From assembly GCF_017306545.1 (NCBI RefSeq), contig NZ_JAFKID010000006.1, positions 124,001-188,000 on the forward strand: 64,000 nucleotides of DNA, in the 5' to 3' direction. This document shows positions 2,273-52,471 of this stretch, in pieces. The notes under the pieces were generated by a model that saw only the letters and a list, made by a program, of their open reading frames with translations, did no database searches and was not told the origin of the DNA. The position numbers and the translations under genes were made by a program. The stretch comes from Mesorhizobium sp. (GTDB taxonomy: Bacteria > Pseudomonadota > Alphaproteobacteria > Rhizobiales > Rhizobiaceae). Position 1 is the first letter of the stretch; every line of letters begins with the position of its first letter.

Positions 2273-3049
2273 TTGACGTCTTATGCAGACATGGTGGCCG
2301 CGATTCCGACCGTCACCGTTGGCGGGTTTTCCGTCAGCGCCGCTGACCGGCCGACGGCGGCGGCCATGATGATTTGTGCCGCGGCCGAGCGGGCGGGCGC
2401 CGGCCGGCCGCTCTATTTCACGTCCATCAACGGCGAGGTCATTGCCCGCGCGCGGACGGAAGAGGATATCAAGCCGCTCTTCAGCGCCGCCGATCAGATT
2501 CTCGCCGACGGGCAGCCGCTGGTCCTTGCCTCGCGCTGGCTGTGTCATGCCCGTCTGCCCGAGCGCGTCGCCACCACCGACCTGTTCCACGACGTTGCGC
2601 GCCTTGCCGAGCAGACGGGCACCACCTTCTACATGCTGGGCGCGGACGAGGAAGAGAATCAGAAGGCCGTCGCCGCCGTGCGCGCCGCCTATCCCAAGCT
2701 GCGGCTCGTCGGCCACAGCCACGGCTATCTGCAAGGCGCTGCGCTGGAAGAAAAGATAGACGAGATCAACAGGCTGGCGCCGGATATCCTCTGGCTGGCC
2801 CTCGGCGTGCCGCTGGAGCAGCGCTTCGTGCGCAGCTATTCCGCCAGGCTCGGCAATGTCGGCGTGATCAAGACCTCGGGCGGCCTTTTCAATTTCCTGT
2901 CCGGCAAGAACAGCCGCGCCCCGTCATGGATGCAGAAGGCCGGCTTCGAATGGCTCTGGCGCATGCTGCTCGAGCCGCGGCGGCTGTCATGGCGCTACCT
3001 GACGACGAATCCCCGCGCCCTCTACGCCTTGCTGAAATATTCGGAATAG
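2273..3049 (+). CDS. WecG/TagA/CpsF family glycosyltransferase
   Basis: A 258-residue cytoplasmic glycosyltransferase of the GT26 family, whose members add a sugar (often N-acetylmannosamine or its uronic acid) to a polyprenyl-linked intermediate of a surface polysaccharide. Diagnostic stretches are YFTSINGEVIARA, TFYMLGADEEEN, the conserved GVPLEQRF block, and the C-terminal GGLFNFLSGKNSRAPSWMQ followed by the Trp/Arg-rich GFEWLWRMLLEPRR. The start used is TTG, because GAGGAG sits seven bases before it; an ATG six codons downstream lacks such a site. It stands alone with no other polysaccharide genes nearby, so the polymer is unknown; exopolysaccharide synthesis is the likely context. Confidence 0.88.
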   Translation: MTSYADMVAAIPTVTVGGFSVSAADRPTAAAMMICAAAERAGAGRPLYFTSINGEVIARARTEEDIKPLFSAADQILADGQPLVLASRWLCHARLPERVATTDLFHDVARLAEQTGTTFYMLGADEEENQKAVAAVRAAYPKLRLVGHSHGYLQGAALEEKIDEINRLAPDILWLALGVPLEQRFVRSYSARLGNVGVIKTSGGLFNFLSGKNSRAPSWMQKAGFEWLWRMLLEPRRLSWRYLTTNPRALYALLKYSE

Positions 3050-13245: not shown

Positions 13246-15702
13246 ATGACCTTGTTGCCTTCGCACGCCGCGATCGTCGTTATCGGCGGCGGCATTATCG
13301 GCTGTTCCACGGCCTATCATCTGGCGCGCGACCACAAGGCCGACGTGGTACTGCTGGAGCAGGGCTCGATCACCTCGGGCTCGACCTGGCACGCCGCCGG
13401 GCTGGTGGGGCAGTTGCGCTCGTCGGCCTCGATCACCCGCGTGCTCAAATATTCGGTTGAGCTTTACAAGGGGCTGGAAGCCGAAACCGGGCTGGCGACC
13501 GGCTGGAAGATGACCGGCTGCCTGCGTCTCGCCACCACGGCGGACCGCTGGACCGAATTCCGGCGGCTGGCCACGACCGCACGCAGCTTCGGCATGGACA
13601 TGGACCTGCTTTCGCCGGCCGAGGTCAAGGCGATGTGGCCGCTGATGGAGACGGCCGATCTCATCGGCGCCTCGTGGCTTCCCACGGACGGCCAGGCGAG
13701 CCCTTCCGATATCACCCAGTCGCTCGCGCGGGGCGCGCGCCTGCACGGCGCCAAACTCTTCGAGAAGGTGCGCGTCACCGGCTTTGCCATGCAGGGCGAC
13801 CGCATCGTCACGGTCAAGACCGACCGGGGCGACATCGCCTGCGACAAGGTGGTGAACTGCGCCGGCCAGTGGGCCAGGCAGGTCGGCGCCCTTGCCGGCG
13901 TCAGCGTGCCGCTGCAGCCGGTCAAGCATCAGTACATCGTCACCGAAAGGATCGACGGGCTGGCGGGCGATGCGCCGACCATCCGCGACCCCGACCGCCG
14001 CACCTACTTCAAGGAGGAGGTCGGCGGGCTGGTCATGGGCGGCTACGAGCCGAATCCGCAGGCGTGGGATACCGGCCTTGCCGGCGGAGACGTGCCTAAC
14101 GACTGGGCCTTCCGCCTGTTCGACGACGACTACGATCACTTCGAGCAGCATATGGGTGAAGCGATCGCCCGCGTGCCGGCGCTCGGCCATGTCGGCGTCA
14201 AGCAGATGATCAACGGCTCCGAGAGTTTTACGCCGGACGGCAATTTCATTCTCGGCGCCGCGCCCGAATGCGCCAACATGTATGTCGGCGCCGGCTTCAA
14301 CGCTTTCGGCATCGCGTCCGGCGGCGGCGCCGGCTGGGTGCTGGCTGAGTGGGTGGTCGACGGCGAAGCGCCGCTCGACCTGTGGGCCGTCGATATCCGC
14401 CGCTTCTCCGGCCTGCACCGCGACCGCCAATGGGTGCGCGAGCGCACGCTCGAAGCCTACGGCAAGCACTACACGGTCGCCTTCCCGCACGAGGAATACG
14501 AAAGCGGCCGGCCGCGCATCGTCTCGCCGCTCTACGAGCGCCTGAAGGCGCGGGGCGCCGTTTTCGGCTCCAAGCTCGGCTGGGAGCGGCCGAACTGGTT
14601 CGCCCCCGCCGGCACGGAGGCGCGCGACGTCTATTCGATGGGCCGGCAGAACTGGTTCGACGCGGTCGGCGAGGAACACCGGCATGTGCGCGAGCATGTC
14701 GGCATCTTCGACCAGTCCTCCTTCGCGAAATACGAGTTGAGCGGCCGCGACGCCCTGTCCGCGCTGGAGAGGATCTGCGCCAACGACGTGGCGAAGCCGG
14801 CCGGCCGGCTGACCTATACGCAGCTTCTCAACAGCCGCGGCGGCATCGAGGCCGACCTCACGGTGGCAAGGCTGGCGGAGGAAAAATTCTACATCGTCAC
14901 CGGCACCGGCTTCCGCACGCATGATTTCGGCTGGATTCGCGATCATATCCCGGCGGGGCGGGACGCCAGTCTCGCCGACGTGACAGAGGCGTTCGGCACG
15001 CTGTCGCTGATGGGGCCGGCGGCGCGGCAGGTTCTTGAGAAAGTCACGGAAGCCGACGTCTCCAACGCCGCTTTCCCCTTCGGCCATGCGTGCGAGATCG
15101 GGATCGCCGGCCATGCGGTGCGGGCGCTGCGCGTCACCTATGTCGGCGAACTCGGCTGGGAACTGCATGTACCGATCGACGGCACCGGCGAGGTTTTCGA
15201 CGCGCTGATGCGGGCAGGGGCCGCGCACGGCATCCGGCCGGTCGGCTACCGGGCGCTGGAATCGCTCAGGCTGGAGAAGGGCTACCGCGCCTGGGGTTCC
15301 GACGTTACGCCCAACGACACGCCGTTCGAGGCGGGGCTCGGCTGGGCGGTCAAGCTCGGCAAGCCCATCGATTTCATCGGCCGCCCTGCCTTGCAGGCCG
15401 CCGCGGGCAAGCCGCCGGCGAAACGCTTCGCCGGCTTCACGGTGGACGATCCGGACGTGGTGCTGATCGGCCGCGAGACGATCCTGCGCGACGGCGCCCC
15501 CGTCGGCTACCTCACGTCCGGCGGTTACGGCTACACGGCGGGCAAGAATATCGGCTACGGCTATGTCCGTAACGCGGAAGGCGTCGGCGACGATTTTCTG
15601 AGGACGGGCTCTTACGAACTGGTGGTCGCCACCCAGCGCACGCCGGCTCGCATCGAACTGGCCCCGCTCTACGACGCGGCGATGGCGCGCATCAAGGCAT
15701 AG
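13246..15702 (+). CDS. FAD-dependent oxidoreductase with GcvT domain (dimethylglycine/sarcosine dehydrogenase-like)
   Basis: An 818-residue two-module enzyme. Residues about 8-380 form a DAO-type FAD module, with the dinucleotide motif [15 protein letters not shown] and [12 protein letters not shown], whose His corresponds to the covalent FAD site of dimethylglycine dehydrogenase. Residues about 430-800 form the GcvT/aminomethyltransferase module with a tetrahydrofolate fold ([72 protein letters not shown]). Such enzymes demethylate N-methyl amino acids or quaternary-amine breakdown products and pass the one-carbon unit to tetrahydrofolate. It begins at the base after the kinase stop, so the pair is translationally coupled. 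The methylated substrate is not determined. Confidence 0.88.
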
Positions 15703-18200: not shown

Positions 18201-20036
18201 CTACTCCGGCACTTTGCGCACCGCACCCTTGTCGGCGCTGGTGGCGAAGGCGGCGTAGGCGCGCAGCGCCTGGGTGACGTTGCGCGTGCGCTTTTCCGCA
18301 GGCTTCCAGCCAGCCTTGTCCTGCGCGGCGCGGCGGGCGGCAAGCTCGGCTTCCGGCACCGCAAGGTTGATGGTGCGGTTCGGGATGTCGATCTCAATTC
18401 TGTCGCCGTCGCGCACCAGGCCGATGGTGCCGCCTTCGGCCGCTTCCGGCGAGGCGTGGCCGATGGAGAGGCCGGAGGTGCCGCCGGAGAAGCGCCCGTC
18501 CGTCAGAAGTGCGCAAGCCTTGCCCAGCCCCTTCGATTTCAGGTAGCTGGTCGGATAGAGCATTTCCTGCATGCCCGGACCGCCGCGCGGCCCCTCGTAG
18601 CGGATGACCACCACGTCGCCGGCCTTGACGGCTTTGCCGAGAATGCCTTTCACGGCCGCGTCCTGGCTTTCGAAGACGACGGCCGGGCCGGAGAATTTCA
18701 GGATCGATTCGTCGACGCCGGCCGTCTTCACGATGCAGCCGTCGAGCGCGATGTTGCCCTTCAGAACGGCAAGCCCGCCATCCTTGGAGAACGGGTGCTC
18801 GGCCGAGCGGATGACGCCGTTCTCGCGGTCGAGGTCGAGGTCGTCCCAGCGCCGCTCCTGGCTGAAGGCGACCTGGGTGGGCACGCCGCCGGGCGCGGCG
18901 AGGTAGAAGTCGCGCACCTTCTGACTGTTGGTACGCGAAACGTCCCAGTGCTCGATCGCCTGGCCGAGCGTTGCGGTATGCACCGTCGGCTGGTCGCGGT
19001 TGATGAGGCCGGCCTTGTCCAACTGGCCGAGGATGGCGAAGATGCCGCCGGCGCGGTGGACGTCCTCCATGTGCACGTCGGCCTTGGCCGGCGCCACCTT
19101 GGACAGGCATGGCACGCGCCGCGACAGCCGGTCGATATCGGCCAGCGTGAAGTCGACGCCGCCTTCGACGGCAGCGGCCAGGATGTGCAGCACGGTGTTG
19201 GTCGAACCGCCCATGGCGATGTCGAGGCTCATGGCGTTTTCGAAGGCCGGCTTGGAGGCGACGTTGCGCGGCAGGACGCTCTCGTCGTCCTGCTCGTAGT
19301 AACGTTGGCACAGGTCGACAACCAGATGGCCGGCCTCGACGAACAGCCGCTTGCGGTCGGCGTGGGTGGCGAGCGTCGAGCCGTTGCCGGGCAGCGACAG
19401 GCCGAGCGCTTCGGTCAGGCAGTTCATCGAGTTCGCCGTGAACATGCCCGAGCAGGAGCCGCAGGTCGGGCAGGCCGATCGCTCCATCACCGTCACTTCC
19501 TCGTCGGAGACGGAATCGTCGGCGGCCGCCACCATGGCGTCGATCAGGTCGACGGCCGTGACCTTGTCCTTCCACACCACCTTGCCGGCCTCCATCGGCC
19601 CGCCGGAAACGAAGACGGCGGGGATGTTCAGGCGCATCGCAGCCATCAACATGCCGGGGGTGATCTTGTCGCAGTTGGAGATGCAGACCATGGCGTCCGC
19701 GCAATGCGCGTTGACCATGTATTCGACCGAGTCGGCGATCAGTTCGCGCGACGGCAGCGAATAGAGCATGCCGTCATGACCCATGGCGATGCCGTCGTCG
19801 ACGGCGATGGTGTTGAACTCCTTGGCGACGCCGCCGGCCTTCTCGATCTCGCGGGCCACGAGCTGGCCGAGGTCCTTCAGGTGGACGTGGCCGGGCACGA
19901 ACTGGGTGAAGGAATTAACCACCGCGATGATCGGCTTGCCGAAATCCGAATCCTTCATGCCGGTGGCGCGCCACAGGCCGCGCGCGCCGGCCATGTTGCG
20001 GCCGTGGGTGGTTGTACGGGAACGGTAAGCTGGCAT
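18201..20036 (-). CDS. ilvD: dihydroxy-acid dehydratase
   Basis: Dehydrates 2,3-dihydroxy-isovalerate and -methylvalerate to 2-keto acids in valine, leucine and isoleucine synthesis. The 611-residue protein begins [20 protein letters not shown]. It has the iron-sulfur cysteines in [11 protein letters not shown] and [20 protein letters not shown], and the C-terminal [20 protein letters not shown] block. Length and motifs match the E. coli-type [4Fe-4S] enzyme, as opposed to the sugar-acid dehydratase relative at 36971-38773. It is monocistronic and divergent from the VOC protein. Confidence 0.96.
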
Positions 20037-20260
20037 CGGATCGTCCTTGCGGCTGCGCCTTGCGCTCGAAATTTCACTGGAACTGCTGGCCTTATATACG
20101 CCGTGCGCCGGCCTTGCCATTGTTTTGCGATGCGCCAGATTGGCTCTGCCTCGCTGCGCGAGGGCTGGCGGCACGACTTTTTCGGCGGTGGCGTCGGGTT
20201 GGCCTTGCCCTGCCCGTCCTTGAAGCATCGAAGCCGAGACTGTTACCCGAGGAGAAAACA

Positions 20261-20734
20261 ATGCAGAAGATCAGCCCGTGCCTGTGGTTCCGCGACGAAG
20301 CCGAAGAGGCAGTGGACTTCTATGTCTCGATCTTTCCCGGCGCGAAGAAGGGATCGATCTTGCGCAGCGATGAGGTCGGGGTCCGGTCCAAGGGCGGCGT
20401 CGTGATGGTGGACTTCGAGATGTTCGGCCAGTCGTTCCAGGCGCTGAACGGCAACCAGGACGACCCTTTCAACCACGCCATGTCGCTTTCTGTCGAATGC
20501 AAGGACCAGGCCGAGGTCGACCTCTACTGGGACAAACTCATCGCCGACCGCGGCAAGGGGGTGGCCTGCTCCTGGCTGACGGATCGCTACGGCGTTTCCT
20601 GGCAGGTCGTGCCGGAAATCCTGCCGCGGCTGCTCCGCGATCCCGATAAGGCCAAGGCCGCGCGCGTCATGACGGCGATGATGAAGATGGTCAAGATCGA
20701 CGTCGCCAAGATCGAGGAAGCCGCGCGCGGCTGA
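20261..20734 (+). CDS. VOC superfamily (PhnB-like) protein
   Basis: A 157-residue protein with the PhnB/3-demethylubiquinone-methyltransferase-like glyoxalase fold: [57 protein letters not shown] and [20 protein letters not shown]. Members are widespread and mostly uncharacterised; despite the database name they are not methyltransferases. It has a clear ribosome site (GGAG, 7 bases). An intrinsic terminator follows within 25 bases, so it is a single-gene unit. Confidence 0.88.
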
Positions 20735-36818: not shown

Positions 36819-36970
36819 TGACCTCTCCCATGCGAACGGCACAGATTGCAGGCGTAGCCTAGCACCCGCCCTCTGTCCATCGCACCAAAGTCCGGGTGTG
36901 CGGCGCCTTGCCTCTTGCTTGCCGGAAGGCACTGTCCTATCCATTTATCAGACAAATAAGGAATACCCCG

Positions 36971-38773
36971 ATGGCAGGCGCCCCGACCGCGAAAAAGCTC
37001 CGCTCGCAGGAGTGGTTCGACAACCCCGACAACCCCGGCATGACCGCGCTCTATCTGGAGCGCTACCTGAATTTCGGCCTGACCCGCGAGGAACTGCAAT
37101 CGGGCAAGCCGCTGATCGGCATCGCCCAGACCGGCTCGGACCTGTCGCCCTGCAATCGCCACCACCTGGACCTTGCCAAGCGTATCCGCGCCGGCATCGA
37201 GGCGGCCGGCGGCGTGCCTTTCGAGTTCCCCTGCCATCCGATCCAGGAAACCGGCAAGCGCCCGACCGCCTCGCTCGACCGCAACCTCGCCTATCTGTCG
37301 CTGGTCGAGGTGCTCTACGGCTATCCGCTCGACGGCGTGGTGCTGACCGTCGGCTGCGACAAGACCACGCCGGCGCTGCTGATGGCGGCCGCCACCGTCA
37401 ATATCCCGGCGATCGCGCTCTCGGTCGGGCCAATGCTGAACGGCTGGCACAAGGGCAAGCGCACCGGCTCCGGCACCATCGTATGGGAATCGCGCCAGCG
37501 CCTGTCGGCCGGCGAGATCGACTACGACGAATTCATGGAGATCGTCGCCTCCTCCGCACCGTCCACCGGCTACTGCAACACCATGGGCACGGCCACCACC
37601 ATGAACAGCCTCGCCGAAGCGCTCGGCATGCAGTTGCCCGGTTCCGCCGCCATCCCCGCACCCTATCGCGAGCGTGGCCAGATTTCCTACGAGACGGGAA
37701 AACGCATCGTCGAGATGGTGCGCGAGGACCTGAAGCCCTCCGACATCATGACGCGCGAAGCCTTCGAGAACGCTATCGTCGTCAATTCGGCCATCGGCGG
37801 CTCGACCAACGCCCCCATCCATTTGAACGCCATCGCCCGCCATCTCGGGGTAAAACTCGACAACGACGACTGGCAGGCGGTCGGCCACAAGATCCCGCTG
37901 CTGGTCAATTTGCAGCCGGCCGGCGAATATCTCGGCGAGGACTACCACCATGCCGGCGGCGTGCCGGCGGTCGTCGCCGAACTGATGAAGGCCGGCCTGC
38001 TGCCGCATCCCGACGCCGTCACCGTCAACGGCAAGTCGATGGGCGAGAACTGCGCCGCGGTCGAGAACATGAACCCGGACGTCATCCGCACCGTCGCCGA
38101 CCCGCTGAAGAAGGAAGCCGGCTTCATCAACCTCAAGGGCAACCTGTTCGATTCGGCCATCATGAAGACCAGCGTCATCTCGGAGGAGTTCCGCGACCGC
38201 TACCTCATGAACCAGGCCGACCCCGACGCCTTCGAGGGCAAGGCCGCCGTCTTCGACGGGCCGGAGGATTATCACGCCCGCATCGACGATCCGGCGGAGA
38301 ACATCGACGAGCACACCATCCTGTTCATGCGCGGCGCCGGGCCGGTCGGCTATCCGGGCGGCGCCGAGGTGGTGAACATGCAGCCGCCGGCCTATCTCAT
38401 CAAGCGCGGCATCCATTCGCTGCCCTGCATCGGCGACGGCCGCCAGTCCGGCACGTCCGGCACGCCGTCGATCCTCAACGCCTCGCCCGAAGCCGCCGTC
38501 GGCGGCGGCCTGGCGCTGCTGAAGACCGGCGACCGCGTGCGCATCGACCTGAAGAAAGGCACTGCCGATATCCTCATTTCCGACGAGGAACTGGCCAAGC
38601 GCCGCGCCGTGCTGAACGGCAACGGCGGCTATCACTATCCGAAGCACCAGACGCCGTGGCAGGAAATCCAGCGCGCTATGGTCGACCAGTTCGACCAAGG
38701 CATGGTGCTGAAGCCGGCGGTGAAGTACCAGGACGTCGCGCATACGATGGGCACGCCGAGGGACAACCACTGA
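36971..38773 (+). CDS. IlvD/Edd family dehydratase, probably pentonate (arabonate-type) dehydratase
   Basis: A 600-residue Fe-S dehydratase of the sugar-acid branch. The N-terminus ([20 protein letters not shown]) is typical of L-arabonate/D-xylonate dehydratases and unlike true IlvD. Metal and cluster residues lie in [18 protein letters not shown] and [40 protein letters not shown] is the C-terminal active-site loop. It would convert an aldonate to 2-keto-3-deoxy-aldonate. The ATG follows AAGGAAT. It stands alone, but the GguC-containing sugar locus 20 kb away may serve the same pathway. The aldonate cannot be fixed from sequence. Confidence 0.87.
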
Positions 38774-41474: not shown

Positions 41475-43541
41475 TCATCTCCCCACCTCGATGACGATGT
41501 TGCCGTCAGCGTCGCCGCGTGCCGCGTCGCCCGGCTCAAGCACCGTCGTGCAGTCCATCTGCTCGAGGATCGCCGGGCCTTCGATCACCGCGTCCAGCGG
41601 CAATTTCTCGCGCGCATAGACCGGTGTGTCGTGCCAGCGCCCGTCATACCAGACGGGGCGTACTTCCAGCCGCGCCTCGGAAAGCGTGCCGGCTCGCCCG
41701 GCCGGGTCGATGAGCCGGCTAAGGTCGAGCGCCGGGCGCACGCCGGTGACCGAGGTGTTGAGGTTGACGAGGTTGGCGCGGATTTCCGGCAGTTCCACCT
41801 TGAAGCGGGCGAAATAGGCCTTTTCGAACAGCGCCTGCAAGGTGGCGCGGTCGATGGCGACCGAGGGCAGGGGGACGTTCACGATATGCGTCTGGCCGAT
41901 GAACTGCATGTCGGCCGAATGACTGACGCGGATTTCCTGCGGCTGCACGGCCTCCTGCGCGATCAGCCCTCGGCCTTCCTCCACCTGGGCTGCGAGCACG
42001 GCGCGCACGCGCTCCTCGTCCAGCGCCGCGACCGGCTGGTTCAGCGTGTTGACGAAATCGTGCCGCAGGTCCGCCACCACGCAACCGAGCGCATTGGTGA
42101 TGCCGGGGCGCGCCGGCACCAGCACGCGCGGCAGGCCGAGTTCACGGGCCAGCGCCGAAGCGTGCAGCGGGCCGGCGCCGCCGAAGGCGAACAGGGTGAA
42201 GTCGCGCGGATCGTGGCCGCGCGCCACCGACACCATGCGGATGGCGCCGGCCATCTTCATGTTGCCGAGTTTCAGAACGGCACCCGCCGCCGCGACGCCG
42301 GAAAGGCCGGCGGCGCGGCCGATTTTCTCCTCGAAAACGGCGGTCACGCTCTCCACGCTGACGGGATTGTCGACCGAAAGCAGCTTCTTCGGCGCCAGCC
42401 GGCCGAGTGCGAGATTGGCGTCGGTGATGGTCGGCTCCGTGCCGCCGCGTCCGTAGCAGATCGGGCCGGGGGCGGCTCCGGCGCTCTGCGGCCCGACCTG
42501 GATCAGTCCGGCCGCGTCGACGCGGGCGATCGAGCCGCCGCCGGCGCCGACCGTGTGCACCGCCACCATCGGCACATGGATCGGCATGGCGTATTCGATC
42601 TCGATCTCGTTGGAGACGGCCGGCTCGGCGTTGCGGATCAGCGCCACGTCGGTCGAGGTACCGCCCATGTCGTAGGTGACGAGGTTCTCGAAGCCGGCGC
42701 GCTTGCCGGTATAGGCGGCGGCGATGACTCCGGAAGCCGGGCCGGACATCACCGTTTTGGCCGCCTCGCGGGTCACGAAGCGGGCCGAGATCATGCCGCC
42801 GTTGCCGTTCATCATCAGGAAGTCGCGGGCATAGCCCTGCACCGCCAGTTCGGCGCGCAGCTTTGCCACATAGCGTTCGAGGATCGGCTGCACCGAGGCG
42901 TTGACGGCCGCCGTCACCCCGCGCTCGAATTCGCGTGCCTCCGAAAGCAGCGCGTGACCCATGGTGATGTGGCCGTTCGGCCAGAGTTCCGCGGCGATCT
43001 CTGCCGCGCGTCTTTCATGCTCTGGATTGGCGTAGCAATGCAGGAAGTGGATGACCAGCGACTCGCAGCCGGCATCCAGCAATTGCCGTACCGCCTTTCG
43101 CACGCCATCCTCGTCGAGCGGCACGCGCACCGCGCCTGATGCTTCGATGCGCTCGGCGACCTCGATGCGCAGATTGCGCGCAATGACGGGGACGAACGTG
43201 CCGGTCATGCCGTAGGCCTGCGGGCGCGTGCGTCGACCGAGTTCGATCACATCGCGGAAACCGGCCGTGGTGATCATGCCGGTTTTCGCCAGCCGCCGCT
43301 CCAGCACCGCGTTGGTGGTGGTGGTGGTGCCGTGCACGATGAGGTCGATGTCCTTCACCGGATAGCTGGTGGCTGCAAGGGCCGCGACCACACCGAAGGC
43401 CTGGTTATCGACGGTCGTCGGCGTCTTGGCGATCGAAACACGGCCGGCAGCCTGATCGATGAGGATCAGGTCGGTGAAGGTGCCGCCGACATCGACGCCG
43501 GCGACGACGCTGCCCGAGTGAGCCGGAGCGTTCTCATCCAT
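41475..43541 (-). CDS. hydantoinase A/oxoprolinase family protein
   Basis: A 688-residue HyuA-type subunit with an actin/ASKHA-like ATP-binding fold: AGVDVGGTFTDLILIDQAAG at the N-terminus (phosphate 1), HGTTTTTNAVLERR, YDMGGTSTDVALIRN (phosphate 2) and GGGSIARVDAAGLIQVGPQS. It phosphorylates or activates the substrate for the HyuB partner. The pair is transcribed away from fpr, with a GTATAC palindrome in the shared upstream region that may bind a GntR-type regulator encoded elsewhere. N-methylhydantoinase, oxoprolinase and acetone-carboxylase-like roles are all possible. Confidence 0.9.
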   Translation of the reverse strand: MDENAPAHSGSVVAGVDVGGTFTDLILIDQAAGRVSIAKTPTTVDNQAFGVVAALAATSYPVKDIDLIVHGTTTTTNAVLERRLAKTGMITTAGFRDVIELGRRTRPQAYGMTGTFVPVIARNLRIEVAERIEASGAVRVPLDEDGVRKAVRQLLDAGCESLVIHFLHCYANPEHERRAAEIAAELWPNGHITMGHALLSEAREFERGVTAAVNASVQPILERYVAKLRAELAVQGYARDFLMMNGNGGMISARFVTREAAKTVMSGPASGVIAAAYTGKRAGFENLVTYDMGGTSTDVALIRNAEPAVSNEIEIEYAMPIHVPMVAVHTVGAGGGSIARVDAAGLIQVGPQSAGAAPGPICYGRGGTEPTITDANLALGRLAPKKLLSVDNPVSVESVTAVFEEKIGRAAGLSGVAAAGAVLKLGNMKMAGAIRMVSVARGHDPRDFTLFAFGGAGPLHASALARELGLPRVLVPARPGITNALGCVVADLRHDFVNTLNQPVAALDEERVRAVLAAQVEEGRGLIAQEAVQPQEIRVSHSADMQFIGQTHIVNVPLPSVAIDRATLQALFEKAYFARFKVELPEIRANLVNLNTSVTGVRPALDLSRLIDPAGRAGTLSEARLEVRPVWYDGRWHDTPVYAREKLPLDAVIEGPAILEQMDCTTVLEPGDAARGDADGNIVIEVGR

Positions 43542-44569: not shown

Positions 44570-44761
44570 AATTTCTTGCAGCTTGCGACCATGAGCGGTG
44601 CAAGCGGCGCCGGCGTGCTCTTTGGCCCGATCGCTCGAATTTTGCGCATCTCGAATACCGATCCTTAAGCCTGCCCGCAGCTTCCACGGATCGTTAACGC
44701 GCTGGTTGCCGTGTCCGTGCGACGGTTCCTCTCACAGAACATCACGACAAGGCAGGCAATC

Positions 44762-45007
44762 ATGATCGACCGCATCCGCACGCTATTGACCGGACATCCG
44801 ATGATTCCGGTGGATTTTTCGGCGCTCAGCGACGACGCCAATCTCTACGACGCGGGGCTGACTTCGTTCGCCTCCGTCCAGATGATGCTGGCGCTGGAGG
44901 AGGAATTCGACATCGAGTTCCCCGAGGCGATGTTGACGCGCCGCACCTTCGCCTCGCTCGCCAACATCGCCGACGCCGTTTCGCAGATCACACGCAAGGC
45001 GGCCTGA
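44762..45007 (+). CDS. aminoacyl carrier protein (acyl carrier protein family)
   Basis: An 81-residue acidic four-helix carrier protein. The phosphopantetheine site reads YDAGLTSFASVQMMLALEEE; Ser35, in LTSF, occupies the place of the Ser in the usual DSL motif. The following DIEFPEAMLTRRTF is characteristic of the carriers loaded by SerRS-like amino acid:[carrier protein] ligases in rhizobia. The ATG reading MIDRIRTLLTG has AAGGCAGG upstream. It is first in an operon with gaps of two to eighteen bases and one ATGA overlap. No phosphopantetheinyl transferase is in the window, so a general one must activate it. Confidence 0.88.
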   Translation: MIDRIRTLLTGHPMIPVDFSALSDDANLYDAGLTSFASVQMMLALEEEFDIEFPEAMLTRRTFASLANIADAVSQITRKAA

Positions 45008-45009
45008 TC

Positions 45010-46218
45010 ATGAACGTGCTCAGTAAGGTCGAAGCCGCCGCGCCTGCGGCTGCATTGGATTCGCCCGCGCAACGCATGCGCCGCGTAGCGGCGGTCGCCG
45101 CCGAACATGGCGACGCGGTGGATCGCGAAGGCCGTTTTCCGGCCGAGACGATCGCCGCGCTGAAGCGCGAGCGCCTGCTTGGGCTGGCCATCCCCGCCGA
45201 GTATGGCGGCGAGGGCCTCGGCACCGCCGCCGTCGCCGACCTGATCGCGCAGCTCGCCCAGGCCTGCGGCTCGAGCGCCATGATCTACGCCATGCACCAG
45301 ATCAAGACGTCGAGCTTCGTCATGCACGGCGTCGGCAGCGAGTGGCACCGTGCCTACATGCGCCGCATCGCCGCCGAGCAGCTTTTGATGGCCTCGGCCA
45401 CGACGGAAGCCGGCATCGGCGGCAACCTGCGCAATTCCATCTGCGCCATCGAGGTCGAGGACGGCCGCTTCAGGCTCGTCAAGGAAGCCATCGTCATTTC
45501 CTACGGCAACTATGCCGACGCCATCCTCGCCACCGCCCGGCGTGCGCCGGACGCGGCGAGTTCCGACCAGATCATGGTGGTGATTCCCAACGACGCCAAC
45601 CGCACGATCGACCGCACCGTGGTGTGGGACACGCTCGGCATGCGCGGCACCTGTTCCGACGGCTTCCACCTGGAAGCAGCGGGCGACGCGGCGCAGATCT
45701 TCCCGAAACCGTTCTCCGAGATCGCCGCGCAGTCGATGCTGGCATCGTCGCACATCTACTGGGCGGCGACCTGGTTCGGCATCGCCGCCGACGCCTTCAA
45801 CCGCGCCCAGGCCTTCGTCAAGGCGGCGGCCCGCAAGCAGACCGACGGCTCGCTGCCGCCGGGCGCGCTGCGGCTCGCCGAGGCGGCGGCGAAATTGCAG
45901 GAGATGAAGGGCCACCTGACGGCCGCCATCCACCGCTTCGACACCGCCCTCGGTGATGATGACGCACTGTCTTCCATCGGCTTCGCCGCCGAGATCAATG
46001 CGTTGAAGATCGCCGCCAGCGAGAAGGCCGGCGAGGTGGTGCGCATCGCACTCCTGGTCAACGGCATCCTCGGCTACAAGAACGGCACACCTTTCAGCGT
46101 CGGCCGCCATCTGCGCGACACCGCTTCCGCGCCGGTCATGATCTCCAACGACCGCATCCTTTCCAACACAGCGACCCTGCTCGTGATGAGCCGCTTCGAC
46201 ACCAGCCTGGGAGGCTGA
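45010..46218 (+). CDS. acyl-CoA dehydrogenase-like flavoprotein
   Basis: A 402-residue protein of the acyl-CoA dehydrogenase fold: AIPAEYGGEGLGTAAVADLI, the flavin/substrate segment MASATTEAGIGGNLRNS, and the C-terminal helical domain ending HLRDTASAPVMISNDRILSN. The usual catalytic glutamate in the Y-E-G-T position near the C-terminus is not present (the stretch reads VMISNDRI), nor is a glutamate evident at the alternative helix-G position (HIYWAATWFGIAADA). It may therefore act on a carrier-bound aminoacyl group by another mechanism, or be a group D flavin monooxygenase-like enzyme. It starts two bases after the carrier gene. Confidence 0.85.
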   Translation: MNVLSKVEAAAPAAALDSPAQRMRRVAAVAAEHGDAVDREGRFPAETIAALKRERLLGLAIPAEYGGEGLGTAAVADLIAQLAQACGSSAMIYAMHQIKTSSFVMHGVGSEWHRAYMRRIAAEQLLMASATTEAGIGGNLRNSICAIEVEDGRFRLVKEAIVISYGNYADAILATARRAPDAASSDQIMVVIPNDANRTIDRTVVWDTLGMRGTCSDGFHLEAAGDAAQIFPKPFSEIAAQSMLASSHIYWAATWFGIAADAFNRAQAFVKAAARKQTDGSLPPGALRLAEAAAKLQEMKGHLTAAIHRFDTALGDDDALSSIGFAAEINALKIAASEKAGEVVRIALLVNGILGYKNGTPFSVGRHLRDTASAPVMISNDRILSNTATLLVMSRFDTSLGG

Positions 46219-46221
46219 CCC

Positions 46222-47145
46222 ATGGACGCCAAGACATTCGATTCCAAAAGCTTGCTGGACAGCCTGTTCGACAACGGCATCCTGTTCGAGACGGGCGTGG
46301 ACGGCCTCTACGGCCGCTCCGGCGCCTTCGAGGAGGTGATCGAGCGCTTCGAAAAACTGGTCACGCGGCTCGGCGCGCCGGACAAGGCGACCCGCATCCA
46401 CTTTCCGCCCGGCATGAGCCGCGCGACGCTGGAAAAGAGCGGCTACATGAAGTCCTTTCCGCAGCTTGCCGGCTGCGTGCATTCCTTCGTCGGCGGCGAG
46501 CGTGAGCACGCGCAACTTCTCAACATGATGGCGACCGGCGAGGACTGGACCGAGTTGCAGAAGGCGACGGACGTGACGCTGACGCCGGCCGCCTGCTATC
46601 CGCTCTACCCGACCGTCGCCGCGCGCGGCCCGGTGCCGGCGGACGGCGTGCTGTTCGAACTGTCTTCCTACTGCTTCCGCCACGAGCCGTCGCAAGACCC
46701 CGCCCGCATGCAGCTTTTCCGCATGCGCGAGTTCGTGCGCATCGGCACCGCCGAACAGGTGCGCGCCTTCCGCGAAAGCTGGCTGACGCGCGGCAAGGCG
46801 ATGATCGAACAGCTCGAACTGCCCTGCGAGGTCGATCTCGCCAACGATCCGTTCTTCGGTCGCGGCGGCAAGATGATGGCCAACAACCAGCGCGACCAGG
46901 GCCTGAAATTCGAGCTGCTGATCCCGGTGAACAGCCTGGAAAAGCCGACGGCCTGCCTCTCCTTCAACTACCATCAGGATCATTTCGGCCAGACCTGGGG
47001 CTTGCAGTTCGGCGATGGCGAATTGTGCCACTCCGCCTGCGTCGGCTTCGGGCTGGAGCGCGTGGCGTTGGCGCTGTTCCGCCACCATGGCCCGGATATC
47101 GAAGCCTGGCCGAAAAAGGTGCTCGCGGTCCTGTGGGGCGAGTGA
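46222..47145 (+). CDS. amino acid:[carrier protein] ligase (truncated SerRS-like)
   Basis: A 307-residue class II aminoacyl-tRNA-synthetase homolog lacking the tRNA-binding N-terminal coiled coil of SerRS. Motif 2 is [20 protein letters not shown], motif 3 is [16 protein letters not shown]. Zinc ligands expected of atypical SerRS-type active sites are present as Cys125 (AACYPL), Glu170 (MREFVR) and Cys273 (SACVGF). In Bradyrhizobium and Agrobacterium such proteins were shown to adenylate small amino acids (glycine, alanine) and attach them to the phosphopantetheine of a carrier protein encoded next door, not to tRNA. The neighbouring carrier gene fits exactly. The amino acid used here cannot be read from sequence. 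Confidence 0.93.
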
Positions 47146-47147
47146 CG

Positions 47148-48146
47148 ATGAAAACCGCCATTGCCGGGCTCGATCCGGCAAGCTACCGGCCGCATCCGCT
47201 GCACGATGCCGAGCGCCGCTGGCCGCAGACCAACTGCTATGTGGACCTTTTGGTCGAGGTCATGCACGCGACCGGACACGACCCGGTCGCGGCGTTGGGC
47301 TTCACGGTGACGCAGGACTTCGAGGGCGACCAGTTCACCTTCTTCAAGTTCCCGAGCGCCGATCTCCAGCGCCTCGCCGGCCTCGACATACAGGAACTGG
47401 CGATCTTCGACCGGTTGGAAGACCATGTCCTCGCCCAGATCGGGCGCGGCCGCCTGCCGCTGGTGGAACTCGACGCGCATTTCCTGCCCGATACGAAGGG
47501 CATCACTTACCGCAGCGGCCATTCCAAGACGACGGTCGGCATCAATGCGCTCGATCCCGAAGCGCGCCGCATGCACTATTTCCACAACGACGGCTATTTC
47601 GCGCTGGAAGGCGAGGACTATGACGGCCTGTTCGGCCCGTACCGCGATGCATCGCCGGGCGGCATGCCGCTGTTTCCCTACGCCGAATTCGTCAAGTTCG
47701 GCGCGCCGGATGGCGAGGAGCCTGCCGCCGCCGCCCTTGATCTCCTGCGCTCCCATCTGGCGCGGCGGCCGAAGCGCAATCCGCTCGCCGCCTATGCCGA
47801 AGCGTTCGAGGCTCATGCCCGTGCACTGGCCGGCCGCCAGCCCGACTATTTCCACACCTATGCCTTCAGCACGCTGCGGCAGGTCGGCGCCAATTTCGAG
47901 CTGCTCGCCAGCCACCTCGACTGGTTGCAGGCGAAGGCCCGCATGGATTTCGACGTGCCGGCGCGCGCCGCCGAGCGCATCGCCGACGGCGCCAAGGCCA
48001 TCCAGTTCAAGCTGGCGCGAGCCATGGCAAGGCAGCGTTTCGACGGATTGGCCGAAAGCATCGCGCCGCTGGCCGAAGCCTACGACACGGTGATGGCGGC
48101 GCTGGAAGCGCGCCTTTCCGCCAGGACGGATACGAAGGCGGCCTGA
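47148..48146 (+). CDS. DUF1839 family protein, possible cysteine acyltransferase
   Basis: A 332-residue protein of unknown function that begins two bases after the ligase stop. The N-terminal 150 residues have an arrangement resembling papain/C39-like and BtrH-type acyltransferases: Cys30 in PQTNCYVDLLVEVMHATGHD, Asp109 in PLVELDAHFLPDTKG, and His125 in YRSGHSKTTVGINALDP. BtrH moves an aminoacyl side chain from a carrier protein to an aminoglycoside. The C-terminal half is helical (ARALAGRQPDYFHTYAFSTL, ANFELLASHLDWL). The acyltransferase idea is my inference from residue pattern and operon context; the family name DUF1839 is the safe label. Confidence 0.78.
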   Translation: MKTAIAGLDPASYRPHPLHDAERRWPQTNCYVDLLVEVMHATGHDPVAALGFTVTQDFEGDQFTFFKFPSADLQRLAGLDIQELAIFDRLEDHVLAQIGRGRLPLVELDAHFLPDTKGITYRSGHSKTTVGINALDPEARRMHYFHNDGYFALEGEDYDGLFGPYRDASPGGMPLFPYAEFVKFGAPDGEEPAAAALDLLRSHLARRPKRNPLAAYAEAFEAHARALAGRQPDYFHTYAFSTLRQVGANFELLASHLDWLQAKARMDFDVPARAAERIADGAKAIQFKLARAMARQRFDGLAESIAPLAEAYDTVMAALEARLSARTDTKAA

Positions 48147-48164
48147 GCCGCCGAGGGGACCAGG

Positions 48165-50687
48165 ATGGACGCCACGGTGCCGGTCGCCGGCGCGGATCAG
48201 GTGCTGGACACGGGATGGTCGATGGCCGTCTCGGCGGCCGGCGCATGGCCGGCACCCGCCGCGATCGACCCGCGCGCCGAATGGCTGGCGGCCGAATGCC
48301 CCGGCACGGCGGCGGCCACGTTGGAGGGGCACGGCCGCTGGGACCGTACAGCACCGACGCCGCTGCACGACAAGGACGTCTGGTATCGCTGCCGGCTGCA
48401 CGCGACAGGGCCGGTGCGCCTGGTTTTCGAGGGCCTGGCGACCGTCGCCGAAATCTGGCTGGCCGACCGGCTCGTCGCAACCTGCACATCGATGTTCGAG
48501 CCCTGTGAGGTCGAGGCCGACCTTGCCGGCGGCGAACAGCTTGCCATCGCCTTCCGCAGCCTCGACAAACATCTGGAGACGTTGATCGGCCCGCGAGCCC
48601 GCTGGCGTCCGCGCATGATGGACGACCAGCGCCTCAGGCTGGTGCGCACCACCCTGATCGGCCACATGCCGGGTTGGTGCCCGCGCTTCGATGCGGTCGG
48701 TCCGTGGCGGCCGGTACGGTTGGTGCAGCAGGGGAAGGGGTTGCGCATCCTCGACAGGATGCTGCGGGCCGACCTCGACGGCACGACCGGCCGCCTTTCG
48801 GTCGCGCTCGACCTGTCCGTGCCGATCGATGCGGGCGAGGATGCGACCGTTTCCTGCGCCGGCGCGACGGTACCTTTGCGTCGCGAAACGCCGACTCGCC
48901 TCGTTGCTGAACTGGAAATCCCCGGCATCCCGCCGTGGTGGCCGAACAGCCACGGCAAGCCGGTTCTGCATGGCGTCTCGGCCCGCATCGGTGCCGTGCG
49001 GCACGACCTCGGCCGCGTCGGTTTCCGCAGCATCGCCCTCGACCGTGGCGTGGACGGCCGCGATTTCCGGCTCATCGTCAACGGCGTGCCTGTCTTCTGC
49101 CGCGGCGCGGTGTGGACGCCGTCCGATCCGGTGACGCTTGCCGGAGACGAGGCCGCATTGGCGCACGACCTCGAATTGGCACGCGATGCCGGCGTCAACA
49201 TGCTGCGCGTCGCCGGCACTTTCACTTACGAGTCCGATACCTTCCACGCATTGTGCGACGAGCTCGGCATCCTCGTCTGGCAGGATCTGATGCTGGCCAA
49301 TTTCGATTACCCGGCAAAGGACGAAGGCTGGTGCGCCGCGCTTGGACGCGAGGTCGCGGCGCTGCTCAGGCGGCTTGCGTCTTCGCCGTCTCTTGCCGTG
49401 CTGTGTGGCGGCAGCGAGATCGCCCAGCAGGCGACGATGCTCGGCTTGCCGGCCGGCATCGATGCGACGCCGTGGTTCGATCATGTCGTCCGCCCGGGGG
49501 CAGAGGCCCTGCGCCCCGATCTCGTTCTCGTGCCGTCCACGCCTCACGGCGGCAGCCTGCCTTTCACCGCGTCGGGCGGGCCGACCCACTATTACGGCGT
49601 CGGCGCCTATTGCCGGCCGCTGGAGGATGCGCGTCGCGCCGAGGTGCGCTTCGCCTCCGAATGCCTGGCCTTTGCCAACGTGCCCGATCAGGCGACGCTC
49701 GACGCGCATCTGCCGGTGCCGCCGGTCCACGATCCGCGCTGGAAGGCCGGCGTGCCGCGCGACGCCGGCGCGTCGTGGGATTTCGAGGATATTCGCGAGC
49801 ACTATCTGGAGACGCTGTTTGCGGTGGATACGCACCGCCTGCGCCGCGAGGACCCGGCACGCTATCTCGACCTGTCGCGTGCCGTCACCGCCGAGGTGGT
49901 CGAGCGCACCGTCGACGAATGGCGCCGCCCCGCCTCGCCGGCGGCCGGCGCATTGCTGCTGTTCTGGAAGGATTTGGCGGTCGGCGCCGGCTGGGGCGTC
50001 GTCGACGCGACCGGCCGGCCGAAATCGGTCTGGCACGCGCTGAAGCGCGCTTTCGCGCCGACGCGGCTGATCCTCTCCGACGAGGGCGTCAACGGGCTCG
50101 ACCTGCATCTGCTCAATGACGGCCCGGCACCCTTGCGCGGCACGCTCTCCGTTTCCTGCCTGCGCGACGGCGCGGTCGCCGTGGTGAGCGGCAAGCGGAC
50201 TGTGGAAGTGTCGCCGCACGGCGGCTTGACGCTTTCGGTCTTCGATCTGCTCGGCGCCTTCTTCGACGTTTCCTATGCCTATCGCTTCGGCCCCGCCGGC
50301 CACGAACTGACGGTGGCGCGCTTCGAGGCTGAGAGCGGCGCGGTGCTGGCCGAGGCTTTTCACACTCTGCCCGGCGTCATGACCGCGCGCCGCGATACCG
50401 GTCTGACCGCGCGGCTGGAGCGCGACGGCGAAGGCTGGCAGCTTGCGCTCGGCTGCCGGCGCGCCGCCTATCACGTCGACATTCGCGACGACCGTTTCCG
50501 GCCGCGGGACAACGGCTTCCACCTTGTTCCCGGCGGTGAGTGCATCGTGCGCCTCGTCGGCCCGGCGGATGCCGAGCCGATGGGGGTCGTGACCGCGCTC
50601 AATGCCGAAAGCGGCGCTGCCTATCGGCCGGCCGAGGTCGCTGCCGCCGGCGCGTCGGACAAGGCTGTTGCGGAGGTGGTGCCATGA
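48165..50687 (+). CDS. glycoside hydrolase family 2 (beta-mannosidase-like) protein
   Basis: An 840-residue protein without signal peptide, so probably cytoplasmic. The order is a sugar-binding jelly roll (residues about 10-180, with [20 protein letters not shown]), an Ig-like region, and a TIM barrel (about 300-620, [53 protein letters not shown]). The acid/base glutamate fits Glu418 ([11 protein letters not shown]) and the nucleophile Glu499 ([10 protein letters not shown]), the GH2 pattern. Catalysis therefore looks possible. In this operon it might trim, or transfer to, a sugar-containing acceptor of the aminoacyl group. It overlaps the next gene by four bases. Confidence 0.82.
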
Positions 50688-52471
50688 GGCCGCTGGTCTT
50701 CGACGGAACGATCGGTTGGTTGCACGAGGCCGGCGGCCGGCGCGGCGTCGTCATCGCCGGTGCGCATGGCTTCGAGGATCTGTGCAGCCGCCGCTTTCTG
50801 ATGCTGCTGGCCGGCCGCATGGCGGCTGAGGGCCTTCCCGTCCTGCAATTCGACTATCCGGGCTGCGGCGATGCCGCCGGCGATCATGCCGCGCCGCGAC
50901 AGGTGGAAGCCTGGGTAAAAAGCATCGGCGCGGCGATCGACAGGCTGAAGCGCGAGACGGGCGTGACGGATGTCGTCGTCGTCGGCTTCCGGCTCGGCGC
51001 GCTGCTGGCGCCGCTGGTTGCCGCCGGCCGCGACGACGTGGCCGGTCTCGCTCTCCTTGCCCCGCCGGCTTCCGGCAGGACCTATGTGCGCGAAATGACG
51101 GCGCTGTCGCGCATGATCGACGCGCCGCTGGCTGCCAGGGGCCCGGCCGAGCCGTTCGACGGAAGGCAGGTCGCAGGCTTTCGCCTGTCTTCCGAAACGC
51201 TCGCCGCACTTGCCGAGCTCGACTGGCAGCAGGCGCTGGCCGAGGCGGCCGCGCCGCATGTTCTGGTGCTGGCCAACGGCACGCCGCCGGAGATCGATTT
51301 TCCGCGCCGAAAGAACGGCGCCGGCCTGCCCGCGGTCACGGTGGCCGAATTCGAGGGCTACGCGCATCTGGCCCGCGATCCGACCGCCAACCGGATTCCG
51401 GAAGCGGCCCTCGACCTTGTGACCGGTTGGATCGGCCACCTGGCGGTGGAAGGCGGCGACCGCGCCGTTGCCTCCGCCTCGAGGGGGCCGCAGATGCTCG
51501 CCGGTCCCGGTTATCGCGAGGAGCCGGTGGTGATCGGCGGCGGCAGTGAAATCTGCGGCGTGCTGTGCCGTCCGGCGAAGCGGGGCGCATCCACTACGCC
51601 GGTCATCTTCCTGAATGCCGGTGCGGTGCCGCATGTCGGCTGGGCGCGCGGCACGGTCGAGGCGGCGCGGGCGCTTGCCGTCGAAGGCGTCGCCTCGCTG
51701 CGCATCGACCTGCCGGGCATCGGCCAGAGCGCGGCGCCGGCGGAAGAGCGGTTGTTCCTTTACGACGGCCGCACGCGCCGCGATGTCATCCGCGTCATCG
51801 ACTGGATGGAAGAGGCAGGTTTTGCACAGGTCGGCGTGGTCGGCGCCTGTTCGGGCGCTTTTCAGGCCCTGCACGCCGCCCGCGCCGACCGCCGCGTGCG
51901 GCGGCTGATGATGATCAATCCGCTGTGTTTCGCCTGGAACAGCTCCTATGCCCTGGAACTGGCCGTGTGGAAGACTTACGGAACGTCCAAGGTGACAATG
52001 CTCGAACCGGGCAAAGGGGACGGACTTCAGGGAGCCGTGCGGTCTTCCGCCTTCGGCGCGCTGCGCACAGGCCTGTCGAAGTTGGCGCGCCGGCCGGTCC
52101 GGCGGCTGCTGGAACTGATCAAGACCGCGCTCGCCGTTCCCGCCCGGCTTAGCGGGCGCACGCCGGTCGAACGCTGGATGCGCGGGCTGGGCAGCCGCGG
52201 CGTCAGGGTTTTGATGGTCACGTCGGAAGGCGACCTGAGCCTGGAGGAGATCGCCCGCCACTTCGGTCCGGATGGCGAGCGCCTCGGGGCGATCCGCGGC
52301 GTGTCGCGGTTGAGTATCGCCGCCGCCGATCATACGCTGACGCCATGCCACGCCCGCCGTGCGCTGGTTGCCCCGCTGATCGAGTTCGGCCTGGAAGACG
52401 ATTTTGCGGGCAAGGCCGGCATGCGGGCGGCGCCGCCGACAGCGGCGAGGCCGGCGCTCGGAACGCCCTGA
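50684..52471 (+). CDS. two-domain alpha/beta hydrolase protein with unusual nucleophile positions
   Basis: A 595-residue protein with two alpha/beta-hydrolase domains. In the first, the nucleophile elbow reads [13 protein letters not shown], so Arg103 replaces the Ser, as in the exosortase-system hydrolases, and this half is probably not a classical esterase. In the second (from about residue 280), the elbow reads [12 protein letters not shown], giving Cys389 as nucleophile (G-A-C-S-G), as in bile acid-CoA:amino acid N-acyltransferase; [16 protein letters not shown] near the end supplies the likely His. A thioester-dependent acyltransferase or thioesterase for the carrier protein is a reasonable inference. 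The ATG overlaps the GH2 stop (ATGA). Confidence 0.8.

Follow-up and report, generated by a model that had tools for sequence, protein, structure and literature searches.

Amino acids are placed on envelope polymers by the DltABCD and AlmEFG systems, which transfer D-alanine or glycine and in which the loading enzyme is an AMP-forming A-domain enzyme and the transferase is membrane bound. Amino acid:[carrier protein] ligases of the Bll0957 family (Mocibob et al. 2010, 2013, via PMC9437257) are listed in the part of PMC9437257 drawn on here with glycine, alanine and serine as substrates and with a biological role called unknown. The operon described below encodes such a ligase and lies in Mesorhizobium sp. 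contig NZ_JAFKID010000006.1 (positions 124,001 to 188,000; this whole stretch of 64,000 nucleotides is referred to as the window, and positions are given within it). Its six plus-strand genes (44762-52471) encode a carrier protein (CP), a flavoprotein of the acyl-CoA dehydrogenase (ACAD) fold, the ligase, a DUF1839 protein, a GH2 protein and a double alpha/beta-hydrolase (ABH). On balance, the operon probably makes an aminoacyl thioester and uses it to decorate a sugar, most likely during assembly of an exported polysaccharide.

The operon and its conservation in relatives

All six open reading frames (ORFs) were verified by ORF calls and profile searches, and the profile matches returned the same six protein families that had been named from the letters of the window alone (the sequence-only reading). 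The coordinates agreed with that reading also in layout, the genes running in one direction, separated by 2, 3, 2 and 18 bases up to the GH2 gene, which shares an ATGA overlap with the ABH gene. G+C content was 68.5 per cent in the operon and 66.0 per cent in the window.

The ligase alignment served to scan genome contigs for relatives. Of the 477 loci confirmed, the 80 best were used, a selection that leans to close relatives and includes several loci that end at contig ends. By tblastn, the ligase was located in 80 loci, CP and DUF1839 in 79 each, ACAD and GH2 in 78 each and ABH in 62, the loci with missing genes including the contig-cut L040 and L088 and L031, an outlier in which just CP and the ligase were found. 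The order CP-ACAD-ligase-DUF1839-GH2 was found in Mesorhizobium, Bradyrhizobium, Rhizobium, Agrobacterium, Brucella, Bosea, Kaistia, Methylobacterium, Azospirillum and others, and on records filed as plasmids from Mycetohabitans, Caballeronia, Cupriavidus and Burkholderia multivorans. Since this gene order is shared by several orders of Alphaproteobacteria and extends to Betaproteobacteria, a chance arrangement is very unlikely; the sequence-only reading had staked its case on such conservation, and the loci bear it out. An apparent ACAD-ligase fusion in Methylobacterium was discarded as an artefact of ORF choice, the two frames differing by their coordinates.

The operon is not universal in the genus, as the ligase was detected in 9 of 61 genomes sampled; all nine loci also showed CP, ACAD, DUF1839 and the start of GH2, with DUF1839 split in two in L001 and L007. 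Among 385 genomes sampled from the class, 5 had DUF1839. Among the 398 genomes of the phylum sample it occurred in 16, and a ligase over its cut-off in 28 that included all 16, so that every DUF1839 seen was accompanied by the ligase, whereas a ligase can be present in the absence of DUF1839. At nine loci (L153-L161) from the 12 genomes with a ligase and no DUF1839, ACAD stood next to the ligase, accompanied by a weakly matching, divergent CP gene in seven and by Wzz in three (L156-L158); L158 also has genes for an AMP-binding enzyme, a short-chain dehydrogenase/reductase and an alpha/beta-hydrolase. A Priestia megaterium plasmid (NZ_CP085444.1, 3.7-18.7 kb) carries CP-ACAD-ligase together with AcpS, ATP-grasp, alpha/beta-hydrolase, DMT transporter, alanine permease, alanine racemase and D-Ala-D-Ala ligase genes, which may form an undescribed antimetabolite cluster. 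The DUF1839-less loci and this plasmid suggest that CP-ACAD-ligase is a module able to move between settings and that DUF1839 with GH2 dedicates it to a glycan.

Two variants were recorded in passing. On a Rhizobium leguminosarum plasmid (L102, 13930-15540) only the first part of GH2 is present, beside an IS5 transposase gene, and the four preceding genes remain. In Burkholderiaceae, a second DUF1839 copy without a ligase of its own lies near a full operon in L108 (21502-24601, minus strand), where it adjoins an ABH gene, and in L162 (genome G823; 14232-15452, minus strand).

Conserved residues and predicted activities

For residue counts, ORFs with in-frame stops or of odd length were left out, and the window row was added to the aligned relatives. 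Clean copies among those found, followed by the number aligned, were CP 79/79 (78), ACAD 78/78 (76), ligase 80/80 (80), DUF1839 67/79 (66), GH2 74/78 (70) and ABH 55/62 (53).

The CP (44762-45007, +; 81 aa; PF00550) scored 97 bits against NF005480 (cut-off 72); the ATG at 44762 was taken as its start, and a longer ORF from a GTG at 44711 also exists. Ser35, read from sequence as the attachment site for phosphopantetheine, was Ser in 79/79 rows. The ligase (46222-47145, +) scored 495 bits against NF005479, "amino acid--[acyl-carrier-protein] ligase" (cut-off 357), and phmmer matched it to PDB entries 4h2w (E 2e-100) and 3mey (E 8e-96). Cys125, Glu170 and Cys273, labelled zinc ligands by the sequence-only reading, were invariant in 81/81 rows, and the absence of a tRNA-binding domain was confirmed by the length of the protein (307 aa) and by its alignment to residues 311-506 of the 527-aa type-2 SerRS chain 3w3s.

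The ACAD fold was confirmed for the product of the second gene (45010-46218, +; PF02771 and PF00441). At the position after the RD motif where classical dehydrogenases carry their catalytic Glu, 71 of 77 rows had Ile (Ile378 in the window protein), five Val and one a gap; the alignment was extended to this site by eye, as the alternative site on helix G was judged. The Priestia protein shares the unusual motif. The window protein thus lacks the residue that defines a classical acyl-CoA dehydrogenase, which argues against alpha,beta-desaturation and fits either loss of the C-alpha hydride to give an imine or an oxygenase reaction. The latter would place the enzyme among the flavin monooxygenases, such as the N-hydroxylases of the DnmZ/nitrososynthase type, with N-oxidation of the transferred group or of the sugar amine. 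The lack of Glu in all 77 rows favors this alternative, as do DnmZ, nitrososynthase and DszC among the sequence matches and DszC, TdsC, MsuC and 5z8t among the fold matches; the fold comparison does not separate dehydrogenase from monooxygenase, and the oxygenase is held here to be possible but rather unlikely.

The DUF1839 protein (47148-48146, +) scored 411 bits against PF08893. Its structural model shows a papain-like fold with a C-terminal helical half and matches CcbD, AziU3 and CtaG in fold, so that the protein is predicted from the model to be a CP-dependent aminoacyl condensing enzyme. A C-(T/S)-H triad has been described for the family, and work on cell-wall glycans proposed for it from gene context (PMC10318531). 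With the triad type taken from that source, Cys30 (66/67 rows, one gap), Thr128 and His146 (67/67 each) were assigned from conservation. These stand in place of the Cys-His-Glu triad of CcbD and LmbD, and because the triad order differs the protein was placed outside the CcbD family, as CcbD-like in fold only. In CcbD and LmbD the carrier is bound by basic residues of a late helix; for DUF1839, the basic residues K283 and R291 (67/67 rows) and R295 (60/67) may form such a site, with Glu46 and Glu52 of CP as guessed partners.

The GH2 protein (48165-50687, +) has an N-terminal PF22666 domain and matches beta-mannosidases best in the PDB (E 8e-37). When aligned to 2je8, the acid/base and nucleophile residues Glu418 and Glu499 were kept in 71/71 rows, as expected of a beta-mannosidase; the residue before the acid/base Glu, Asn in 2je8, was Ser (Ser417) in 71/71. 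In the ABH protein (50684-52471, +; PF12146 and PF00561), Cys389, Asp517 and His550 of domain 2 were kept in 54/54 rows. Domain 1 had R, Q, H, L or other residues at the nucleophile site (23 sequences) and therefore no conserved nucleophile, so by sequence only domain 2 looks active, with Cys as nucleophile. Scores of 84 and 89 bits against TIGR03100 and TIGR03101, over two stretches each, did not reach the cut-offs of 168 and 203.

Polysaccharide neighbors and the Bep locus

At least one of ten polysaccharide-type families was found within the fetched stretch in 37 of the 80 loci: Wzz in 28 of them, and otherwise GT4 (family 4 glycosyltransferase), Wzx, Wzy-like (a name given here to a 434-aa protein without a family match), WecG and GumK, three loci being counted by GT4 alone; representatives were identified with Pfam and NCBIfam. 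Across 101 genomes of the order, Wzz (PF02706) was counted 215 times, or about once per 2 Mb, so that its presence in 28 of the 80 loci, each covered over about 20 kb, greatly exceeds the background, kinship of the loci notwithstanding; this comparison assumes a mean genome of 4.1 Mb, treats the loci as independent and uses a purpose-built Wzz model for the loci and the Pfam model for the genomes. Wzx was found in 18 loci with a cleanly seeded model. An earlier count of 20 was dropped, its model having been seeded partly from the first 520 residues of ORFs of more than 990 aa, not all of which were Wzx-ABH fusions; the total of 37 loci is unchanged by reseeding because each locus has another family or matches another Wzx model.

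In L023 (titled Mesorhizobium), genes for WecG, GT4, Wzx, ABH, GH5 and GT4 lead co-directionally into CP-ACAD-ligase-DUF1839-GH2, with a divergent Wzz gene in front; loci in Kaistia soli (L022) and a Bosea metagenome-assembled genome (L024) are much alike. A Wzx flippase and ABH are joined in a single protein in five loci (L062, L066, L071, L076 and L087), as checked with Pfam for one of them; four of the five are titled Rhizobium and the fifth Rhizobiales bacterium.

In B. multivorans (L107), CP-ACAD-ligase-DUF1839-GH2 lies between genes for a CRP/cNMP regulator and a VpsR-domain sigma-54 regulator, similar to BerA and BerB respectively. A bacterial sugar transferase gene is found to one side of this stretch, and genes for a beta-helix protein and two GT4 enzymes to the opposite side. 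BerA (Bcam1349) and BerB (Bcam1342) of B. cenocepacia control bepA-L (Bcam1330-1341), which include genes for a TIGR03100 hydrolase, a beta-helix protein, Wzz, Wzx and glycosyltransferases, according to the parts of PMC3584217 and PMC5552954 used here. From this placement we infer that Burkholderia versions of the operon are the genes between Bcam1342 and Bcam1349; the terms searched for on that stretch were absent from the text of PMC3584217 and PMC9684580. In the sections of PMC5507470 on the bec cluster of B. pseudomallei, a transposon mutant in becG, annotated as an acyl-CoA dehydrogenase, had reduced biofilm (0.84 +- 0.08, the first column of the table, taken as relative biofilm) and smooth colonies, and a primary biofilm screen found all but three of the 18 cluster genes. 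Two of the three, becM and becO, were not in the transposon library. The third, becF, is probably the carrier protein gene, its identity and that of the genes after becG being read from gene order. Neither the Bep/bec link nor the missing catalytic Glu of ACAD was part of the sequence-only reading.

Around the window operon (34762-60000), none of the ten hidden Markov models matched and ten neighboring ORFs had no polysaccharide family in Pfam; the Mesorhizobium-type loci L015-L020 likewise had no such family near the operon. A WecG/TagA-family glycosyltransferase gene elsewhere in the window (2273-3049, +) is the sole match to its family in the genome and stands alone; it was rejected as a polysaccharide cluster, its neighbors being a GcrA gene and argF- and argD-like ORFs (the latter two read by eye). 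Of the window neighbors HyuA and FPR, sought in the 80 loci, HyuA (hydantoinase-A-like, window 41475-43541) was matched only in the Roseiarcaceae locus L031, by a nearby gene with 37 per cent identity, and FPR in none. Six of the 80 loci (L015, L017, L018, L029, L043 and L056) have a member of one family of proteins of about 541 aa encoded close to the operon, the L015 member matching peptide and other ABC-transporter binding proteins in the PDB. The window also holds two different genes of the dihydroxy-acid/phosphogluconate-dehydratase family (36896-38773, +, and 18201-20261, -).

Proposed pathway, alternatives and comparison with described systems

In the pathway envisaged, the ligase would activate a small amino acid (glycine, alanine or serine, the substrates of its family) and load it onto the phosphopantetheine of CP Ser35, and the ACAD-fold flavoprotein would oxidise the bound aminoacyl group. 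Cys30 of DUF1839 would then accept the acyl group and hand it to a sugar amino (or hydroxyl) group, in the way known for CcbD when celesticetin is made. Trimming, transglycosylation, acyl transfer or proof-reading of the decorated glycan, or of a lipid-linked repeat unit, may fall to GH2 and to ABH with its Cys nucleophile and, where these are linked, Wzx, Wzy and Wzz would export and polymerise the decorated unit. By its gene content, the window copy would be expected to produce an aminoacyl group that is bound to the carrier and probably oxidised, and to pass it to an acceptor via DUF1839; that this acceptor belongs to an exported polymer would follow by analogy with the relatives. The sequence-only reading had put forward a carrier-bound aminoacyl pathway without nonribosomal peptide synthetase modules, which the present results support, and had guessed at modification and transfer to a sugar-type acceptor, for which the fold match of DUF1839 to CcbD and the relatives in polysaccharide loci now speak. 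It is possible, if somewhat short of an even chance, that this constitutes an unrecognised route for amino acids onto surface polysaccharides, in which a ligase derived from an aminoacyl-tRNA synthetase (aaRS), a CP, an oxidising ACAD (yielding an imine, oxo or N-oxy group) and a papain-like CcbD-fold transferase act on a repeat-unit sugar ahead of Wzx and install a base-labile or reactive polymer group that work in alkali, as on Bep, may miss.

Several observations weigh against decoration of an exported polysaccharide. The case is built from computation and the published work of others. At E<=10, a sequence profile of DUF1839 matched none of the condensing enzymes of the PDB and so gives no link to CcbD. 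None of the ten polysaccharide families was found in 43 of the 80 loci (some contig-cut) nor in the window; the genome itself gave no match to the Rhizobium Wzx, in a search without a positive control, and three weak matches only to the GT4 of the Rhizobium relatives. CP-ACAD-ligase occurs without DUF1839 and GH2. In the same sections of PMC5507470, the becG value is nearer wild type than those of six other bec mutants (0.43-0.66), and becF, present in the library, was not found in the screen. Finally, the Bep-type polymer of BerA-overproducing H111 has the repeat Gal-Glc-Gal-Man and no amino acid in the part of PMC7084887 that reports it; it was extracted in 0.3 M NaOH and examined by nuclear magnetic resonance in NaOD, so that an ester-linked group would be lost and an amide-linked one would survive.

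Some of these points fit instead a natural product of lincosamide-like or antimetabolite type, in the form of a small aminoacyl-sugar that stays soluble, with the polysaccharide neighbors acquired secondarily in some lineages. The closest folds to DUF1839 include CcbD, from lincosamide antibiotic synthesis, the window copy and the 43 loci have no polysaccharide neighbors, and the Priestia set looks antimetabolite-like. This product is nonetheless considered unlikely, given the polysaccharide linkage in several lineages, the Wzx-ABH fusion, the Bep-like placement in B. multivorans, the becG biofilm mutant and the absence of any exporter or resistance gene that recurs beside the six genes in most of the 80 loci. 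Less probable still is a DUF1839 that is no transferase and, as a papain-like hydrolase, edits or releases mischarged CP or processes glycans; the fold and the C-(T/S)-H triad agree with hydrolysis, CcbD having C-H-E. Export of an aminoacyl glycoside by the product of the MATE gene that adjoins the operon (best NCBIfam match DinF, 275 bits, cut-off 409 not reached), as the sequence-only reading had it, is very improbable, since that gene is convergent and not co-directional, has no tblastn counterpart at E<=1e-5 in the 80 loci and is outside the conserved set, the linked exporters elsewhere being Wzx flippases.

If polysaccharide decoration is correct, a job is provided for a family of loading enzymes whose purpose a 2022 review still called unknown, and DUF1839, which Pfam lists without a function, is assigned a likely reaction. 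Taken together, the gene set, the fold similarity to CcbD and the Bep/bec link yield a testable claim, that an amino acid is placed on a sugar, probably of a biofilm-type polysaccharide, and polysaccharide structures derived from alkali-treated material may lack a real substituent. In searches of an open-licence library, no publication was found on DUF1839 together with a carrier protein and an aaRS, nothing relevant by title on the carrier ligase in Bradyrhizobium or with exopolysaccharide, ACAD and flippase, and only an unrelated paper on aminoacyl groups, acyl carrier protein, exopolysaccharide and GH2.

The operon resembles DltABCD and AlmEFG in that an amino acid on a small carrier would be bound for an envelope glycan or lipid; Pfam and NCBIfam scans found no AMP-forming ligase or membrane-bound transferase of the Dlt/Alm type among its six genes. 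Its ABH matches the models of both exosortase-A-associated hydrolases 1 and 2 (TIGR03100 and TIGR03101) below their cut-offs, and differs from them in carrying two hydrolase domains in one protein. With the Bep/bec locus it shares, in L107, a position between BerA- and BerB-like genes, and bep also holds a TIGR03100 hydrolase; bepA-L (Bcam1330-1341) as defined excludes the operon genes and the window has no such neighbors. In common with the lincosamide synthetase (LmbD and CcbD with their carrier proteins) it has a CcbD-like fold, in DUF1839; it differs in the order of the triad, in its aaRS-like loader, in having an ACAD-fold enzyme as part of the gene set and in the many relatives that lie within polysaccharide loci. 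The ligase, over the NF005479 cut-off and matching 4h2w and 3mey, is like those of the Bll0957 family, to whose account a set of downstream enzymes is here proposed as an addition.

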